From positions 1 through 10,230 of the forward strand of contig JAFVAA010000262.1 in the NCBI GenBank assembly GCA_017476305.1: DNA of 10,230 bases. The letters run 5' to 3'. The DNA comes from Lachnospiraceae bacterium (GTDB taxonomy: Bacteria; Bacillota; Clostridia; Lachnospirales; Lachnospiraceae). The notes under the pieces are model-generated. The model was not told the origin of the DNA, did no database searches, and saw only the letters and a list, made by a program, of their open reading frames with translations. Both the position numbers and the translations under genes were made by a program. This document shows positions 1,736 to 8,749 of this stretch, one piece after another; positions within the stretch are counted from its first letter, which is position 1; each line of letters opens with the position of its first letter.

Positions 1736-3670
1736 TCATGAGCATAAAATCTCCATCATCCCTTCATAATCGAACCGTCCCGCCTTCTCTTTCAGCTTAG
1801 CGAATCTCTCTGCATCCGTCTCCGGTATCGTATAAGCCTCCATCTCCGAAAAAATACCCTCTAACCGGTCACAGTCCATATCCTCTGCAGCCGATTTGAT
1901 TTCATCGTACATTACTTCCATAAGTGCCGCATCTGCCTCCGGTCTGTCCAGTTCCTTCCCCTTTTCCTCTTCCCGAAACATCTCAGACAGCGGTGCTTTA
2001 AATTTTCTCAGATTCTCCATGAATCCTTCCTGATGTTCCCTAATATAATCTATATCCTCCCCTTTTCCGGCATCTTCTAACTTCTGTGCCTCTTCTCCAA
2101 AAGAAGCAGCCCCGATGATCCGTGCCGAACTCTTTAACGCATGTACTTTGATCGTATAACCTTTCATGTCACCGGATTCATACAGTTTTTCTATTTCCTC
2201 TGCCTTTTCTTCCAAAGATTCATAAAAAATCTCCAGCAGGGAAAGATATGCCTCTTTCGAACCACTGTTTTCTATCCCCTGTCTGACATCAATGGACTCC
2301 AGTCCATTCAGTGGCGCAAACTCCTCCGAAAGACCGGAAGCTGACTCTGTTTCCATCTCCACTGTCTTTATCTTCTCCTCCGGCAGGTAAGTAAGCAGAA
2401 TATCTTCTAACGTTTCGGAATCAATCGGCTTCGTCAGATAATCATCAAATCCCTCTCTGATATACTCTTCCCTCGCACCTGAGATCGCATTGGCAGTGAG
2501 ACAGATGACCGGTGTATTCCGATTCGGATTCTCTTCCTGCGCGCGCATCTCATGCAATGTCTCGATTCCGTCCTTTTCCGGCATCATATGGTCGAAAAAG
2601 AGCAGGTCAAATGTTTTTTCCCGTGTAAGCTTTAAAGCTTCGTCTCCACTCTCCGCAGTCTCGATCTTTACCTTTGTACTCTTTAAAAGACTTTCAAAGA
2701 CGACCAGATTCATCTCGTTATCATCCACCACGAGTACCAGGGCATCCGGTGCGGTAAATTTCCCCTTTTGTTTCTTATGCACTTTATAAAGTTCCCGGTA
2801 TGCTTCCTCATAATCCCCTAAAGGCTTCCAGGAAACCACTCTCTGTTTCAAGGTAAAGAAAAACCTGGAGCCCAGACCATAGGTACTCTCGACCTGAAGA
2901 CTCGTTCCCATCATCTCCAGCAGATTTTTCGTAATACTCAACCCAAGTCCGGTGCCCTCTATGTTTCGATTTCTTTTTTCTTCGATTCGCTCGAACTCTA
3001 AAAAAAGCTTCTTCATATCCTCCGGCCTGATGCCGATTCCACTGTCCTTGACCGAAACATGAAGGAGTATACAGTCCGGTTCAGACTCCGTTTTTTCAAA
3101 GCCGATTTCAAAAGTGATACTCCCCTTTTCCGTGTATTTTACAGCATTTGTTAAAATATTCGTTATGATCTGCCTTAGCCGGACCTCGTCTCCGTGAAGC
3201 TGTTTCGGAATCTCCTTATCAAAATCAAGTGCCAGAAAAAGCCCTTTCTCAACTGCTCTTGGCTTTATCATATTCACCAGGTCATTTAACACGGCACAAA
3301 GATGATAGTCCACAGGCAGGATTTCAATCTTCCCCGCCTCGATTTTTGAAAAATCCAGAATATCATTGATCAGTCCCAAAAGAGTATTTCCCGATGTCCG
3401 GACACTTTCAGCATACTGCAGTATAGCCGGATCCTCACACTCCCTTAAAATCATCTCATTCATTCCGAGAACCGCATTGATCGGGGTTCGGATCTCGTGT
3501 GACATATTGGAAAGGAAAGCGGTTTTGGCTTCATTTGCTGCCACCGCCCGCTCTTTTTCCTCTTCAGACCTTGCAGCCGCAATGCTTTTCCTGCCGGAGT
3601 AGAACAAAATGCCCAGAACCACTGCCAGAAAAAGAGAAGCAGCAAGTATAGTAAGTACTAACCGGACCAT
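1736..3670 (-). CDS. hybrid histidine kinase, C-terminal part (HisKA-HATPase-REC-HPt)
   Basis: This frame holds one transmembrane helix and all phosphorelay modules of a hybrid kinase. The frame is open from a TTG at 3712 (658 residues). ATG 3670 is the more plausible start because it follows GGGGG by three bases. In 658-residue numbering, the helix spans about 18-38. HisKA has SNMSHEIRTP (His72). The ATPase has Asn189, DSGIG (Asp223) and GTGLGLS (253-259). The receiver spans about 324-445 with VVDDNE, phospho-Asp374 in FFDHMMP, Thr406 and Lys428. The HPt domain has HALKSS with His524. All catalytic residues are present, but the extracellular sensor is gone and the first transmembrane helix lies in another frame (3564-4004). 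It is probably the 3' part of a damaged gene that might still be expressed by reinitiation. The 5' neighbour is the REC-GGDEF gene. Confidence 0.82.
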   Translation of the reverse strand: MVRLVLTILAASLFLAVVLGILFYSGRKSIAAARSEEEKERAVAANEAKTAFLSNMSHEIRTPINAVLGMNEMILRECEDPAILQYAESVRTSGNTLLGLINDILDFSKIEAGKIEILPVDYHLCAVLNDLVNMIKPRAVEKGLFLALDFDKEIPKQLHGDEVRLRQIITNILTNAVKYTEKGSITFEIGFEKTESEPDCILLHVSVKDSGIGIRPEDMKKLFLEFERIEEKRNRNIEGTGLGLSITKNLLEMMGTSLQVESTYGLGSRFFFTLKQRVVSWKPLGDYEEAYRELYKVHKKQKGKFTAPDALVLVVDDNEMNLVVFESLLKSTKVKIETAESGDEALKLTREKTFDLLFFDHMMPEKDGIETLHEMRAQEENPNRNTPVICLTANAISGAREEYIREGFDDYLTKPIDSETLEDILLTYLPEEKIKTVEMETESASGLSEEFAPLNGLESIDVRQGIENSGSKEAYLSLLEIFYESLEEKAEEIEKLYESGDMKGYTIKVHALKSSARIIGAASFGEEAQKLEDAGKGEDIDYIREHQEGFMENLRKFKAPLSEMFREEEKGKELDRPEADAALMEVMYDEIKSAAEDMDCDRLEGIFSEMEAYTIPETDAERFAKLKEKAGRFDYEGMMEILCS

Positions 3671-4004
3671 AGACCCCCGTAGAAGCTTCCGGCAAGATAT
3701 TTGATATAGCAAAGGATTGATCGACCAGATACCCTAACATCTCCTCTGCCCCCCGCTCTCCGCGAAGCATGTTATCCAGGGAGTACCCCGCCAGAGAGAT
3801 ACAGTCCATCCCCACAGAAAGATAACCGTTGAGCTTTTCCGCAGAAATGCCGGCATTTAGCCCGCCCTCTTTCATCATATTACTTTCTGTTTCATCACGG
3901 AGCATATTGTAATATACGATGATGATAACCGAAAAAAATACAATGACCACTATGGAAGCAATAATGCCTCTGATATAGCCCGGTTTCTTTTTTTCTCCAA
4001 ACAT
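3564..4004 (-). pseudogene. N-terminal fragment of the hybrid kinase (TM1 and start of sensor)
   Basis: ATG 4004 has a good ribosome site (GGAG, six bases away) and starts a 146-residue frame. A basic N-terminus and a transmembrane helix (about 14-32) are followed by an extracellular stretch to about residue 110, ending ILPEASTGVYG. That looks like the opening of a Cache-type sensor. From about position 3670 the frame turns into Cys/Ser-rich nonsense that overlaps the second transmembrane helix of the kinase frame, and it ends at 3564. The simplest reading is one original gene, 4004-1736, that lost most of its sensor (roughly a Cache domain's length) by an out-of-frame deletion near 3670. The start is 53 bp behind the REC-GGDEF stop, so the two were probably co-transcribed. 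Confidence 0.8.
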
Positions 4005-4057: not shown

Positions 4058-5422
4058 TTACTCATTTTTTTCGTTCTCCACGCTCTTCATTACATACTGT
4101 ACACGAACCCCGTCCTGATACCCGCTCTGCTCCCACATTTTCATCACTCTGTCTATCACGCTCAGGACATGCTTTTCCAAAAGTGCCGGCAAAAACAGGA
4201 AGAACTGATTCCCCTTACACTGCAGGATCAGATCGCTTTTCCTCAGTGTTTCCTGTAAAACCATGCCAAACTGCTCTGCTTTTTCTTCCAGCTTCTCCCC
4301 CTCCCCGGACTCCATATCTAATGAAAACAGAACCTTTACAGCAGGCATCTGATAGCGTTTGATATACCGCATGACAAACCGGTAAATAGAAGAAAATGCT
4401 TCCTGCCCCAGCATGAGTGCGCCGCTGCCGTCATTTCTTTCCTCTACGATCTGCGTGACTCTTTTCAGCTCCTGTTCTAAATCCGTCTTCTCATTTTTCT
4501 CCTGATCCGGGAACTCTGATGCAGTATACACGGCACAGTCATGTTTTCCGTTCTGCTTCACCTTATAGAGCATCTTATCTGCCAGGGCAAACAGGTCATG
4601 ATATTCCCTGCCATATTCCGGTATCATGACAGCTCCTGCAGATATCCCAAGCGGTATGGAAAAATCCTCCCCCATCAGCTTTACTGCTTCCGCTGTAAGC
4701 TGTTCGTTCAATCTCTTCACGATGACCGTCATGGCATGGTCATCCGGCACATTACAGAAAAACGCTAAAAATTCATCTCCACCGATTCTGCATACCAGAT
4801 CATCCTCACGTGTGTTCTGTCTGATAATCTCTGCAAAAGCCCGAAGAATCCGATCTCCCATATCATGCCCGTACAGGTCGTTCACTAACTTAAAACTGTC
4901 CAGATCCAAGATCATAAGCACTCCTGTTTTTTCTGCACAGTATGCCTCGACTTTTACTGTCCCGCCTGCCTTGTTAAAAAAACCGGTCAGTGCATCTACG
5001 CTCACTTCCTCTGTCAGATTTTCAATCGTTTTGACACTTGTAATGGTATTATTGATACGCCTGACCAAAATATCCTTATTAAACGGCTTATGTACAAAAT
5101 CAGAAGCTCCTATTTCTAATCCCCTGCGCTCTGTTTCCGCATCGTTTTCACCCGTCAGAAAAATAACCGGCGTCTGCTTCCTTCCATCCCTTTCTTCCAA
5201 ATCCCTCAGTTTTCTGTATGTTTCAAACCCGTCCATTTCGGGCATCAGCACATCGAGAAGAACCAAATCCGGTTCGTGCTTCTCCATAAATGCCAGAAGT
5301 TCCCTGCCGGAACGCACGCAGCTCACACGCATCCCCACTTCGCGCAGCATATTTCTGGCATTTGCGATGCTCAGTGCCTCGTCATCTACTACCACAATCC
5401 AATCACTCATCTTTTTATCCAT
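4058..5422 (-). CDS. REC-GGDEF diguanylate cyclase with degenerate second GGDEF-like domain
   Basis: This is a soluble response regulator predicted to make c-di-GMP from two GTP when phosphorylated. The receiver (residues 7-130) has VVDDE, phospho-Asp57 in LLDVLMP, Thr90 and Lys112. The cyclase domain (about 140-300) begins with DALTGFFNK, has LDLDSFK (172-178) and an intact GGDEF at 214-218. An inhibitory I-site, REDD (205-208), lies exactly five residues before it, so product inhibition is expected. Residues 335-445 look like a second, inactive GGDEF fold: SDLILQCKGNQFFLFLP sits where RIGGDEF would be, with NQ in place of the catalytic DE. Two starts are possible. ATG 5422 has AAAGGA only two bases away; ATG 5410 is four codons later. 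A shared 36-bp promoter lies 42 bp upstream. The damaged hybrid kinase follows after 53 bp and is a possible phosphodonor. Confidence 0.93.
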   Translation of the reverse strand: MDKKMSDWIVVVDDEALSIANARNMLREVGMRVSCVRSGRELLAFMEKHEPDLVLLDVLMPEMDGFETYRKLRDLEERDGRKQTPVIFLTGENDAETERRGLEIGASDFVHKPFNKDILVRRINNTITSVKTIENLTEEVSVDALTGFFNKAGGTVKVEAYCAEKTGVLMILDLDSFKLVNDLYGHDMGDRILRAFAEIIRQNTREDDLVCRIGGDEFLAFFCNVPDDHAMTVIVKRLNEQLTAEAVKLMGEDFSIPLGISAGAVMIPEYGREYHDLFALADKMLYKVKQNGKHDCAVYTASEFPDQEKNEKTDLEQELKRVTQIVEERNDGSGALMLGQEAFSSIYRFVMRYIKRYQMPAVKVLFSLDMESGEGEKLEEKAEQFGMVLQETLRKSDLILQCKGNQFFLFLPALLEKHVLSVIDRVMKMWEQSGYQDGVRVQYVMKSVENEKNE

Positions 5423-5463: not shown

Positions 5464-5499
5464 ATTGTATCACACCGAGTATGACCACAGTGCTACAAA
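5464..5499 (-). promoter_or_regulatory. shared 36-bp promoter/operator, copy A (REC-GGDEF gene)
   Basis: On the minus strand this reads TTTGTAGCACTGTGGT, CATACTCGG, TGTGATACAAT. The end is an extended -10 (TG, A, TACAAT). The place of a -35 holds CACTGT, a poor match to TTGACA. Heptamers GTAGCAC and GTCATAC begin 11 bp apart. A predicted start near 5457 gives a short leader of about 35 bases to ATG 5422. A/T-rich DNA (5512-5538) lies just upstream. Confidence 0.72.
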
Positions 5500-5554
5500 T
5501 CAGGGGGCATTTTGAAAAAAAATATTTTTTTATATATAGCTGGTTTTGAATGGG

Positions 5555-5591
5555 AAATGGCAGCCCGCCCTGTTTCGGCAGACTGCCATTT
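5555..5591 (-). terminator. strong hairpin after the STAS gene, candidate terminator
   Basis: The minus-strand RNA can form a 15-bp stem. AAATGGCAG pairs with CTGCCATTT, continued by TCTGCC pairing with GGCGGG, around a seven-base loop GAAACAG. Two of the pairs are G-U on the minus strand and would be A-C mismatches on the plus strand, so the structure fits minus-strand RNA. It lies about 110 bases after the STAS stop and before promoter A. A downstream U run is lacking (CCCATTC follows), so termination is likely but not certain. Confidence 0.5.
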
Positions 5592-5699
5592 TCATGAATT
5601 TACATAATCAGTGAAGAAATCTGATATCCCCACTGTCAACTGCATTATCCGAAAATATATGTCCCTCTATCCGTTAGCGAGCATAGCACGGCATCATAT

Positions 5700-5999
5700 T
5701 TAACCGGCATCTTCTTTCCACTTCGCACAGACAATATCATGCATCCGGCACCTGCTTTCCACCCAGTAATCTGCATTTTCTATGTACATGATCCCCTGCT
5801 CATTCATAATTTTCTGTGCATAAGAAAGAATCCGCAGGCCAATACTGGAAATATCATTTAAGCCTTTCATATCAAAAGACAGCTTTTCTATTCCCTGTAT
5901 CTCTTTCACGACCAGATTCTCCAGCTCATTTTCTGTCTTTCTGTCAAACGAACCTTCAAAATCAACCTCTAAAGACTTCCCTTTCTTTTCGATTTTCAT
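5700..5999 (-). CDS. single-domain STAS protein (anti-anti-sigma-factor type)
   Basis: This small cytoplasmic protein has 99 residues, the normal length of a lone STAS domain. Such proteins bind a kinase/anti-sigma partner and are switched by serine phosphorylation. The signature is DISSIGLRILSYAQKIM (residues 49-65), which matches the family pattern SSaGLRvL; Ser51 or Ser52 is the expected phosphosite. No kinase, phosphatase or sigma gene lies next to it. ATG 5999 is chosen because AAGGAG lies ten bases upstream and the STAS fold starts at once (MKIEKKGKSLEVDFEGSFD). The frame also stays open to TTG 6089, which has its own AAGGAG three bases away, so a 129-residue form with a Cys-Cys extension cannot be excluded. 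The gene has its own copy of the shared promoter about 190 bases upstream and so a long leader. Confidence 0.87.
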   Translation of the reverse strand: MKIEKKGKSLEVDFEGSFDRKTENELENLVVKEIQGIEKLSFDMKGLNDISSIGLRILSYAQKIMNEQGIMYIENADYWVESRCRMHDIVCAKWKEDAG

Positions 6000-6155
6000 T
6001 TTTGACTGTCTCCTTCTTATACCCCATTCATCAACAGAAGCAGAGAGATGACTGCCTGCAGTTTTCAAACAGCAAAAGCCAGACAGCAATCTCTCCTTCT
6101 TTACGATGGGGATGATTTCACATGGCCTTCGAACTATATAAAAAACAGCTCTTTC

Positions 6156-6177
6156 TACATAGGTTGAGGACTATGTA
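6156..6177 (-). promoter_or_regulatory. small hairpin in the STAS mRNA leader
   Basis: TACATAG (6156-6162) and CTATGTA (6171-6177) form a perfect seven-bp stem with the minus-strand loop TCCTCAAC. It would lie about ten bases from the predicted transcript start of promoter B. It may only protect the 5' end. The loop's TCCT could pair with AGGA of either ribosome site, but that is weak. Confidence 0.4.
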
Positions 6178-6192
6178 TGCCATGCAGAGAAA

Positions 6193-6228
6193 AGTATAAC
6201 ACACCGAATACTACCACAGTCCTACAAA
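6193..6228 (-). promoter_or_regulatory. shared 36-bp promoter/operator, copy B (STAS gene)
   Basis: On the minus strand this reads TTTGTAGGACTGTGGT, AGTATTCGG, TGTGTTATACT. The extended -10 is TGTTATACT; the -35 position (GACTGT) is poor. Heptamers GTAGGAC and GTAGTAT begin 11 bp apart, and the second ends nine bases before the -10 hexamer. The 373-bp gap between the regulator gene and the STAS gene holds this promoter, the regulator's terminator, a 12-bp tandem repeat and the leader hairpin; I see no further gene in it. Confidence 0.78.
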
Positions 6229-6253
6229 AACGGGGCAATAATTAAAAAAAATT

Positions 6254-6298
6254 CAAAAAAAGTACATCCACAGCCTGTTTGTTTACTGTCAGATGTAC
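6254..6298 (-). terminator. intrinsic terminator of the kinase/regulator operon
   Basis: On the minus strand GTACATC pairs with GATGTAC. An inner ACAG/CTGT helix extends the stem past a small internal loop, with loop TAAACAAACAGG. Seven T residues follow directly and a second T run comes a few bases later. This is a textbook rho-independent terminator, 75 bp behind the response regulator stop and just before promoter B. Confidence 0.85.
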
Positions 6299-6306
6299 CT
6301 TCTTTC

Positions 6307-6342
6307 ATTTACTTTTTTATTTACTTTTTTATTTACCTTTTT
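6307..6342. repeat. three tandem 12-bp A/T-rich repeats
   Basis: Plus-strand units are ATTTACTTTTTT (6307-6318), ATTTACTTTTTT (6319-6330) and ATTTACCTTTTT (6331-6342). The third differs by one base. On the coding strand this is AAAAAAGTAAAT in tandem, between the regulator stop and its terminator. The exact repetition suggests slippage and possible copy-number variation between strains. Confidence 0.85.
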
Positions 6343-6372
6343 ATTAATTGGTTCAAAACCCGACTTTTTGTT

Positions 6373-7182
6373 TTACACTCTGCCCCCTCCCGAAAATTCT
6401 TCGAACAGTGTTCCGATTCTCTCCTCTGCCCAATCATACTGGCTCATATATTCGCCATGAAAATTCGCCAGCACCGTCTTGTTCCTCTTAAGCGCAGAGT
6501 AATAATCACATGGAATCTTCTCCGGCACGATTGCATAAAAATTCCTTTCCTGCCGGAACACATCCCCACAGCCAATATCCTCTAACCTCATTCTGACATC
6601 CCTGACAAGTTGTGCAAAATATTTTCTCTGATTCCGTTCGTCGCTCACCGCATCTCTCCAAAGGACTGCCCGAAGCTCTGCATTTGTGGCAGAAGCACCT
6701 CTCCTGTCGATCAGGTATGCAAACAGCTCCTTTGCCTTTGTCCTCCGGAAGCGTACCGGCTCCCCATCATAAAATACCTCGAAATTTCCGAAACACTGGA
6801 CATATAATCCTGAAATCTCCTCTTTTATGGGATTCCTCAAATGTTCCAAAGCATCACGCACATCCTCCTCTAAGACCGGCTTCACGATATATCCGCTCAC
6901 ATACAGCCTGAGAGCATCGAGCGCATACTGTGGATGTGCTGTGACCATGATGATATTAATTTGCGGTCTGATTTCTTTAAACTCCTTTGCCATCTCCAGT
7001 CCATCAAGATCCGGCATACTGATATCTAAGAACACCACATCAAACTCCTTTTCCCAAAAAACAGCAAGTGCCGTATCTGCCCTGCCTGCCATTTCCATAT
7101 ACGCAGACGGCACGACTTTTTCTAAAATCTCCTGCATATATCTTAACGCTACTGCTTCATCATCTACGATCAATATATTCAT
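6373..7182 (-). CDS. SAPR-family response regulator (REC, SARP-like winged helix, short BTAD-like tail)
   Basis: This 269-residue protein is a predicted transcription activator worked by the upstream sensor kinase. The receiver (1-118) has VDDE (acidic pair Asp7/Asp8), phospho-Asp53 in FLDISMP, Thr81 and Lys101. The output domain begins near residue 125 with LYVQCFGNFEVFYDG, the typical opening of the SARP/AfsR winged-helix domain, then RRTKAKELFAYLIDRRG, and ends in a short tail with FHGEYMSQYDWAEER that resembles the end of a bacterial transcriptional activator (BTAD) domain. I place it in COG3947 (SAPR) from family knowledge, not a search. ATG 7182 is chosen: GGGAG lies eight bases upstream and the receiver starts there; an open frame to 7233 has no such support. 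It follows the kinase stop by 72 bp in one operon and probably binds the 36-bp elements before its own operon and the STAS and cyclase genes. Confidence 0.92.
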   Translation of the reverse strand: MNILIVDDEAVALRYMQEILEKVVPSAYMEMAGRADTALAVFWEKEFDVVFLDISMPDLDGLEMAKEFKEIRPQINIIMVTAHPQYALDALRLYVSGYIVKPVLEEDVRDALEHLRNPIKEEISGLYVQCFGNFEVFYDGEPVRFRRTKAKELFAYLIDRRGASATNAELRAVLWRDAVSDERNQRKYFAQLVRDVRMRLEDIGCGDVFRQERNFYAIVPEKIPCDYYSALKRNKTVLANFHGEYMSQYDWAEERIGTLFEEFSGGGRV

Positions 7183-7254
7183 CTCAGTTTCTCCCTTTTC
7201 CTCCGACTCCATACTCATACATGGCCAGATCATATCCTATGCTCACTCATGTTT

Positions 7255-8598
7255 TCATCTGCCATCCCTGGGAATCAAAATCGTGCATACGGTTCCTTTC
7301 CCCTTCTCGCTCTCGATCCTTAGTTCGCCACGGCATTCAAACCACAGGCGTTTTTTCACATTCCGGATACCGATATGCGTATCATCTAAATCCTCCAGAC
7401 CATCTGTATCAAAGCCTGCACCATTATCTGCCACCTTTACTGCATGATGGGTGTCCGTCCTCTCAGATGTGATCGTTATCCTGCCGCTGGATGTTTTGCT
7501 TTTCCGAATGCCATGCCTGATTGCATTTTCTGCCAGAGGCTGTAAAGTCAGTACCGGAAGCTCAAAGGCTTCATCCTGTATGTCGTATTCTACCTCCAGA
7601 TCATCCTCAAACCGAAGCTTTTCTAACTCCAGATATTTTTCTGTGTGTTCCAATTCGTCCAAAAACCTCACAGGATGCTCTGTCGTAAGGGAATCCAGAT
7701 TTTTTCTTAAATATTTCGAAAAATCCCCCAGTGCCGCCCTCGTTTTCTGCGGATCCTTATCTGCATGATACATAATAGACTGAAGCACATTGTATAGAAA
7801 ATGCGGCTGTATCTGAGAAAGCGTCAGCCTGGTCTGTATCCTGTCCATCCGGGTTGATCTGTCGATTGCATACATTACTTTATGTCTTTCATACAGAATA
7901 AAAATAATCAGCGCGGTAACGATAACCGCAATATTGTTCAGACTGACTTCCTTTATGATATGGTCCAATAAAAAAGCAGACAAAGGAATCAGCGTACTAA
8001 AAAGAAGCACCTTTCTAAAAAAAACATCTGCCTTTCTATACCAGAACAGGATGATGGTTCCGATAAATCCAAATGTGACCAGAGTCACATAGAACCATAC
8101 CGGATAACCAAAAGAACGCACATAATGATTTGCCCCGTCAAAATGGTATAAAAAACCGGTAAACGGTGTAACAATCAGTAAAATCATCAGCAGAAGCTCC
8201 AAAGCCTGAAAAAAACGTATCAGCTTTCTGACTGCTCTGTTTCCTGCTGATGTGATGATATCCATATAGATGACCTGCAGGAAAAAAGTGGTCAAAAATG
8301 CACCGGTCAAAAAATACCCAAAGACAGCAATACGTATTCCGATCAAGGAAAAAGAGTCTACAGCCCCTTCACAAAATATGATGACCAGATTAAAAAGATT
8401 GTATAAAAAAATCGCAATATAAAAGATCAGAATTTCTTTCGTATATGGAATCGTAATTTTCTTCATGAAAGTATGCTTTCTGTCCTGTCTTATGCTAATA
8501 AGCATAGAAAATATGATAATCAGCAGTACAAGCTCAAAACTCATCTCACTGACTGCCTGTATAAACAAAGGGATTTCTATCCGTCTGATCAGTTCCAT
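7255..8598 (-). CDS. LytS-type seven-helix sensor histidine kinase
   Basis: This 447-residue membrane kinase very likely phosphorylates the SAPR regulator encoded directly behind it. About seven hydrophobic segments occupy residues 20-237 with only short loops, so the signal may be a small ligand or a membrane state. A short coil leads to the His_kinase (PF06580-type) motif QIQPHFLYNVLQSIMY with His266. The ATPase domain has LQPLAENAIRHGI (Asn358), ADNGAGF (Asp391) and HIGIRNVKKRL. Its C-terminus is complete (GKGTVCTILIPRDG). ATG 8598 is chosen over the longer frame to 8625 because GGGAGG lies six bases upstream. The messenger leader is about 108 bases long and can fold near this ribosome site. 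The shared 36-bp promoter lies upstream, suggesting autoregulation. Confidence 0.93.
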   Translation of the reverse strand: MELIRRIEIPLFIQAVSEMSFELVLLIIIFSMLISIRQDRKHTFMKKITIPYTKEILIFYIAIFLYNLFNLVIIFCEGAVDSFSLIGIRIAVFGYFLTGAFLTTFFLQVIYMDIITSAGNRAVRKLIRFFQALELLLMILLIVTPFTGFLYHFDGANHYVRSFGYPVWFYVTLVTFGFIGTIILFWYRKADVFFRKVLLFSTLIPLSAFLLDHIIKEVSLNNIAVIVTALIIFILYERHKVMYAIDRSTRMDRIQTRLTLSQIQPHFLYNVLQSIMYHADKDPQKTRAALGDFSKYLRKNLDSLTTEHPVRFLDELEHTEKYLELEKLRFEDDLEVEYDIQDEAFELPVLTLQPLAENAIRHGIRKSKTSSGRITITSERTDTHHAVKVADNGAGFDTDGLEDLDDTHIGIRNVKKRLWFECRGELRIESEKGKGTVCTILIPRDGR

Positions 8599-8603
8599 TT
8601 TCC

Positions 8604-8677
8604 GCCTCCCAAAGATACCTCTCAATTCAAGGAGGGGATGTAAAAAATACTATTTTTCACACCCCACTACAAGGAGA
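8604..8677 (-). promoter_or_regulatory. structured 5' leader of the kinase operon with possible anti-SD switch
   Basis: The minus-strand RNA GGGGTGTGAAAAA (ending near 8653) pairs with TTTTTTACATCCCC (ending at 8634) through GGGG/CCCC, a one-base bulge, TGT/ACA, one G-U pair and an A/U run. CTCCTTG flanks it on both sides. The downstream CCTCC (8631-8635) can pair with GGAGG of the ribosome site at 8605-8610. It shares two bases with the hairpin's CCCC arm, so the two structures exclude each other. This is a hand-folded proposal only. Confidence 0.4.
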
Positions 8678-8713
8678 TATAAAAGCAACAAAAAAATAAA
8701 TGCTACGAATATA

Positions 8714-8749
8714 AGTATAGCACAGTAAATACTACCACAGTACTACAAA
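8714..8749 (-). promoter_or_regulatory. shared 36-bp promoter/operator, copy C (kinase/regulator operon)
   Basis: On the minus strand this reads TTTGTAGTACTGTGGT, AGTATTTAC, TGTGCTATACT. The extended -10 is TGCTATACT, with predicted start near 8707. Heptamers GTAGTAC and GTAGTAT begin 11 bp apart. Upstream DNA (8750-8780) is rich in A/T runs and includes the palindrome AAAAGATCTTTT (8749-8760). From about 8781 to 8862 I see nothing recognisable. Confidence 0.77.

Follow-up and report, generated by a model that had tools for sequence, protein, structure and literature searches.

The locus and its repeated promoter-like element

The analysed stretch, hereafter the window, is one entire contig (JAFVAA010000262.1; 10,230 nucleotides) from a gut bacterium of the Lachnospiraceae (GCA_017476305.1), whose assembly comprises 4,010,710 bases in 957 contigs and is 79% complete. 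On its minus strand lie genes for a sensor histidine kinase and its neighbouring response regulator, a STAS protein and a REC-GGDEF protein, and a 36-bp element occurs upstream of the kinase/regulator operon, the STAS gene and the REC-GGDEF gene (Table 1). A preliminary description, made from the sequence alone, had reported three ungapped minus-strand copies with 26 of the 36 columns invariant; the copies were confirmed at exactly those coordinates, and a recount gave the same number of identical columns. Identity between elements was 72–86%, compared with 22–42% for the 60-bp upstream flanks and 22–37% for the 60-bp downstream flanks. Since the flanks are unrelated, conservation is confined to the element and does not reflect a duplicated promoter plus gene, and a gene duplication carrying its promoter was ruled out, as the preliminary description had maintained.

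Read 5' to 3', each copy consists of two 11-bp direct half-sites, three variable bases, TGTGn and the −10, with 8 bp between the end of the second half-site and the −10. The half-sites of copy 1 are TTTGTAGTACT followed by GTGGTAGTATT. A scan for consensus −35/−10 pairs called none at the three element sites, which have no consensus −35. The TG of the extended −10 was invariant in all eleven copies known from the window and from a second species (see below), and across these eleven the half-to-half similarity was highest at lag 11 (6.91/9), with lag 8 as the runner-up (5.36/9). Repeat strength at lag 11 was 7/9 for copy 1 and 6/9 for copy 2. The published operators of SARP-family activators are arranged in this way, with direct repeats at an 11-bp interval and 8 bp between the 3' repeat and the −10. 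The −10 lies 115, 193 and 41 bases from the likely start codons of the kinase, STAS and REC-GGDEF genes, respectively, and transcripts would be expected to start near 8707 (copy 1), 6186 (copy 2) and 5457 (copy 3).

Table 1. Element copies and genes of the window, with their positions.
Feature	Positions	Strand	Details
Element copy 1	8714-8749	minus	half-sites 8739-8749 and 8728-8738; extended −10 TG 8721-8722; −10 TATACT 8714-8719; upstream of kinase/regulator operon
Element copy 2	6193-6228	minus	half-sites 6218-6228 and 6207-6217; −10 TATACT 6193-6198; upstream of STAS gene
Element copy 3	5464-5499	minus	half-sites 5489-5499 and 5478-5488; −10 TACAAT 5464-5469; upstream of REC-GGDEF gene
Sensor histidine kinase (His_kinase + HATPase_c)	7255..8598	minus	from open reading frame and Pfam; likely start ATG 8598
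Response regulator	6373..7233	minus	receiver domain and SARP-like DNA-binding part (predicted); likely start ATG 7182
STAS protein	5700..5999	minus	99 aa; anti-sigma-factor-antagonist type
REC-GGDEF protein	4058..5422	minus	predicted diguanylate cyclase; GGDEF motif intact
Hybrid histidine kinase	1736..4004	minus	two overlapping frames, 3564-4004 and 1736-3712

Copy number and conservation in a second species

With up to three mismatches allowed, the pattern shared by the three copies gave three matches in the window but none in 200 shuffled sequences; over the whole assembly, these three remained the only matches and the reversed pattern yielded none. A looser pattern likewise returned the same three and no fourth, with one match for its reversed control. 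Given the 79% completeness of the assembly, further copies may be absent from the data. Hundreds of scattered copies, which the preliminary description had named as an outcome that would speak against it, did not appear in the genome scan.

The relative used for comparison is the Lachnospiraceae metagenome-assembled genome RUG14099 (G313; locus L052 is sequence-identical to its contig C322), whose regulator is 83–84% identical to that of the window. There, the looser pattern found eight copies (five without mismatch, two with one and one with two) against a single control match, so that the relative has the larger regulon (eight copies versus three). Seven of them precede, respectively, the kinase/regulator operon, the REC-GGDEF gene, a STAS–ATP-grasp–MATE–GH3 row, an acetolactate-decarboxylase gene, a second row composed of GH3 and MATE genes, a SpoIIE-type phosphatase gene with a split frame, and an MCP–STAS pair; the eighth lies near a contig end. 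The two rows encoding bacterial GH3-family enzymes and MATE transporters are found at L194:724-5577 and L195:1290-4384. As the STAS protein of the MCP pair shares 64% identity over 86 residues with that of the window, a related STAS gene sits under the same element despite a different neighbourhood. Upstream of the kinase gene and of the REC-GGDEF gene, the two species have kept the element, and their leaders have diverged. Retention before orthologs in another species, as expected of a regulon, was accordingly observed for the kinase/regulator, REC-GGDEF and STAS genes. The claim of a shared promoter defining a small regulon is supported, the copies being few, situated before genes and kept before orthologs in RUG14099.

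When proteins encoded by targets of the relative were sought in the 79%-complete own assembly, GH3 gave no match, MCP a 27% match at best, and SpoIIE a best match over query residues 158–304 (65%) but in a differently built protein; the own-genome stretches scanned for the other targets carried no element. The kinase leader of the window contains a 14-pair hairpin at 8633–8672 (fold z −2.6). Its sequence is not kept in the relative, the leader of which has a different strong hairpin of its own (z −4.2), and Rfam gave no match at gathering scores anywhere in the window, whereupon a riboswitch or other known RNA was rejected.

Among 28 genomes of the genus, a close regulator was present in two only, namely the own genome (100%) and the relative, the best match elsewhere being 41%; element copies with zero or one mismatch were found in exactly these two. 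The remaining 26 genomes contained 15 matches in 11 of them, all with two or three mismatches, compared with 17 for the reversed control. The strict pattern, with three mismatches allowed, was found in none of 298 further genomes of the family, a sample that excluded RUG14099.

The response regulator

The receiver domain of the window regulator was recognised by Pfam (Response_reg, 2.6e-22), its Asp-70 is invariant across 61 homologs and a histidine kinase adjoins it; the protein thus combines the phosphorylatable aspartate and adjacent kinase of a two-component response regulator. In a structural search with the DNA-binding part alone, the top matches were the SARPs EmbR and AfsR, well above OmpR-type domains, and the match extended over 140–144 residues for SARPs versus ~92 for the OmpR type. 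In the predicted structure, an OmpR-like winged helix precedes a BTAD-like region, the succession that characterises SARPs; of this region only the first part is present. A fold search with the whole model listed receiver domains and OmpR-type regulators, with no SARP among the best 50 listed. The window regulator is the likely cognate factor of the element, which would make the circuit autoregulated; neither this fit nor the element's internal 11-bp repeat and missing −35 had figured in the preliminary description.

Direct repeats near related regulators

Direct repeats positioned 8 bp from a −10 were searched for at loci of regulator homologs, without use of the window sequence as a pattern. 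The sample comprised the window and 97 fetched loci, 98 in all with 1.21 Mb, and 40 stretches from the same genome set served as controls (0.80 Mb). Four weak loci (L071, L073, L074 and L075) were left out, and longer fetched loci replaced the short search loci L001–L033 and L076–L084. A period of 11 gave 73 matches, of which 57 were intergenic and 37 both intergenic and within 300 bp of a start, with 30 of the 98 loci represented. The periods 8, 9, 10, 12, 13, 14 and 15 each gave 4–8 intergenic matches and 1–6 near a start over the same loci, and the controls at period 11 gave 17 matches, seven intergenic and three near a start. This corresponds to a period-11 excess of ~10-fold over other periods and of ~8-fold per base over the controls. 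When the spacing was left free, the period-11 signal was maximal at spacers of 7–8. Under an alternative identity rule, period 11 produced 49 matches in 31 of 97 loci versus five in 4 of 40 controls, with 2–21 for other periods in the regulator loci. The strict setting is conservative, since only one of the three window copies passes it.

The half-sites vary by lineage (TTGTGATA, TGTGACAGT, TTGTCATA, TTGCAAAG, TTGTTGGACA and others). Half-site similarity tracks regulator similarity over 33 loci (Mantel test, 1000 permutations, p ~0.001); for this table, L052, L055, L058 and L060 were entered by hand, L058 and L060 being below the strict repeat setting. In the own genome, contig C682 (L034:5271-7643) encodes a paralog with the same receiver and SARP-like parts (REC-SARP), 55% identical to the window regulator and followed by a TGTGACAGT 11-bp repeat (twice), which is single-copy in the genome and precedes an HD-GYP gene, encoding a predicted hydrolase of cyclic di-GMP (c-di-GMP). 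Specificity is clearer within this one genome, where one repeat stands before an HD-GYP gene and another before a GGDEF gene; the former arrangement was also found in L053. The own-genome paralog loci C331 (incomplete), C868 and C416 carry no strict element.

Further repeat promoters were seen in passing. Two Oscillospiraceae loci (L068:1553-5950 and L072:1293-6362) each hold about six TTTGCAAAG-type 11-bp repeat promoters, several of them before genes with signal-peptide-like starts, and apparently represent a larger putative regulon of the same design. At other REC-SARP loci, a repeat promoter precedes a small open reading frame with a double-glycine-type leader, as judged by eye (L113:6415-6717), and another an ECF sigma-factor gene identified with Pfam (L114:1546-2093). 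In control stretch L160, from genome G138, a pair of nearly identical TTTGTTGTTC repeats, laid out alike, lies at 10552 and 12493, far from the fetched regulator locus; a REC-SARP encoded elsewhere in G138 may perhaps act on them.

Downstream of the REC-GGDEF gene in the window, and in the same direction, follow the split hybrid kinase, probably owing to an assembly frameshift or a broken gene, and then another kinase. Both kinases may possibly be co-transcribed with REC-GGDEF.

Interpretation and alternatives

We consider it likely that the element is an activator-dependent promoter in which the 11-bp repeats replace the −35 and are bound by the regulator of the first operon, a predicted two-component SARP relative; the whole is read as the autoregulated regulon of such a SARP. 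According to the proposed mechanism, the kinase would phosphorylate the neighbouring regulator, and the DNA-binding parts of two regulators would sit side by side on the half-sites. Thus bound, they would engage sigma region 4 and RNA polymerase in the manner of AfsR, in place of the missing −35 contact, and transcription would start from the extended −10. With the kinase/regulator operon as its own first target, the circuit would have positive feedback and could behave as a self-reinforcing switch. Its outputs in the window would be the STAS gene, the REC-GGDEF gene and anything co-transcribed behind the latter, so that one signal could raise partner-switching and c-di-GMP signalling together; in the relative, chemotaxis-type, phosphatase and metabolic genes would be added.

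Several observations weigh against this interpretation. The repeat of copy 3 is weak (5/9), and since lag 8 scores too, period 11 rests chiefly on the relatives. The Pfam models Trans_reg_C and BTAD do not match the window regulator, and 68 of the 98 regulator loci contain no strict element, including the own-genome paralog loci C331 and C868. One of the eight copies in the relative has no clear gene, and several targets of the relative were not found in the incomplete own genome. The recognition helix, moreover, accounts for half-site similarity no better than the receiver domain (0.31 versus 0.37; partial, 0.18 versus 0.28); as far as these predicted sites go, the correlation shows co-inheritance and no readable recognition-helix code.

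The last point also favours the alternative that the element is bound by some other factor, whether an alternative sigma factor or a response regulator other than that of the window, with the kinase/regulator pair merely among its targets, as does the presence of further REC-SARP paralogs in the own genome. We regard it as quite improbable, because the element tracks the window regulator throughout the 28 genus genomes, a different repeat is found beside the 55% paralog, repeat-type promoters are enriched around such regulators generally, and the relatives show a −10 of the TATAAT type. Rather unlikely, too, is that the regulator binds the element in a non-SARP manner, either as an ordinary class II activator of the PhoB/OmpR type or as a repressor: SARPs are clearly the better structural match in view of the match lengths given above, and the absent consensus −35 suits activation better than repression. 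The three close copies inside 3.3 kb might suggest a dispersed repeat or a recent duplication devoid of regulatory meaning, to which we give next to no credence. Such a repeat would be present in many copies regardless of genes, whereas there are three in 4.01 Mb and eight in the relative, positioned before genes, with unrelated flanks, and kept in the second species despite diverged leaders; a dispersed repeat was ruled out on the copy number and the flanks.

Beyond this locus, we lean slightly towards the view that two-component SARPs are numerous and uncharted in Clostridia, and that many of them possess an operator of their own, built from 11-bp repeats and always placed 8 bp from an extended −10. 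These would be modular, insulated activator/promoter pairs with paralogs coexisting in one cell, activation of the sigma-adaptation type would occur outside Actinobacteria, and two paralogous circuits of the own genome would act at opposite ends of c-di-GMP signalling, through a GGDEF synthase and an HD-GYP hydrolase. If true, the operators and regulons of uncharacterised two-component systems of gut Clostridia could be read from sequence by a simple rule, namely two 11-bp repeats 8 bp upstream of a −10, near a regulator. The promoter architecture of Streptomyces antibiotic regulators would then extend to regulators that are controlled by phosphorylation and act on c-di-GMP, STAS and chemotaxis-type genes, and a source of putatively orthogonal activator/promoter pairs would be at hand.

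Comparison with known systems

Response regulators of the PhoB/OmpR type, exemplified by the pho box, combine a receiver with a winged helix and use tandem 11-bp half-sites over the −35, features shared with the window system. Regulators with receiver, winged helix and BTAD, presumably those named COG3947, have the domain order predicted for the window regulator. Within the open-licence PubMed Central literature searched, no operator was described for a clostridial COG3947 member, and no description of a two-component clostridial SARP operator system was found.

For SARP operators, one report gives direct-repeat intervals of 11 or 22 bp and a distance of 8 bp between the 3' repeat and the −10; it also describes a 22-bp afs box that overlaps the −35, with sigma region 4 carried by a dimer of the AfsR SARP (PMC10936776). 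Other descriptions are a review citing heptameric repeats with spacers of 4–15 nucleotides, generally overlapping the −35 (PMC10972967), and a report on PimR, whose main operator has 4-bp spacers without −35 overlap and whose second operator has a 10-bp period (PMC5930380). Judged from its sequence, the window element has the AfsR operator layout as given in the first of these reports.

With SARPs such as AfsR at the afsS promoter, and with the structurally solved relative EmbR, the window system shares a predicted winged helix that leads into the beginning of a BTAD-like part, and a promoter in which direct repeats with an 11-bp period cover the −35 region and end 8 bp upstream of the −10, the −35 itself being poor or absent. 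Unlike them, it combines its SARP-like part with a receiver domain in one protein and has a partner kinase; the BTAD region comprises the first part only, the host is a member of the Lachnospiraceae, and the promoter has an extended −10. Its targets are genes of signalling rather than antibiotic clusters. The system is best described as a clostridial form of the SARP operator and activator that works within a two-component pair.

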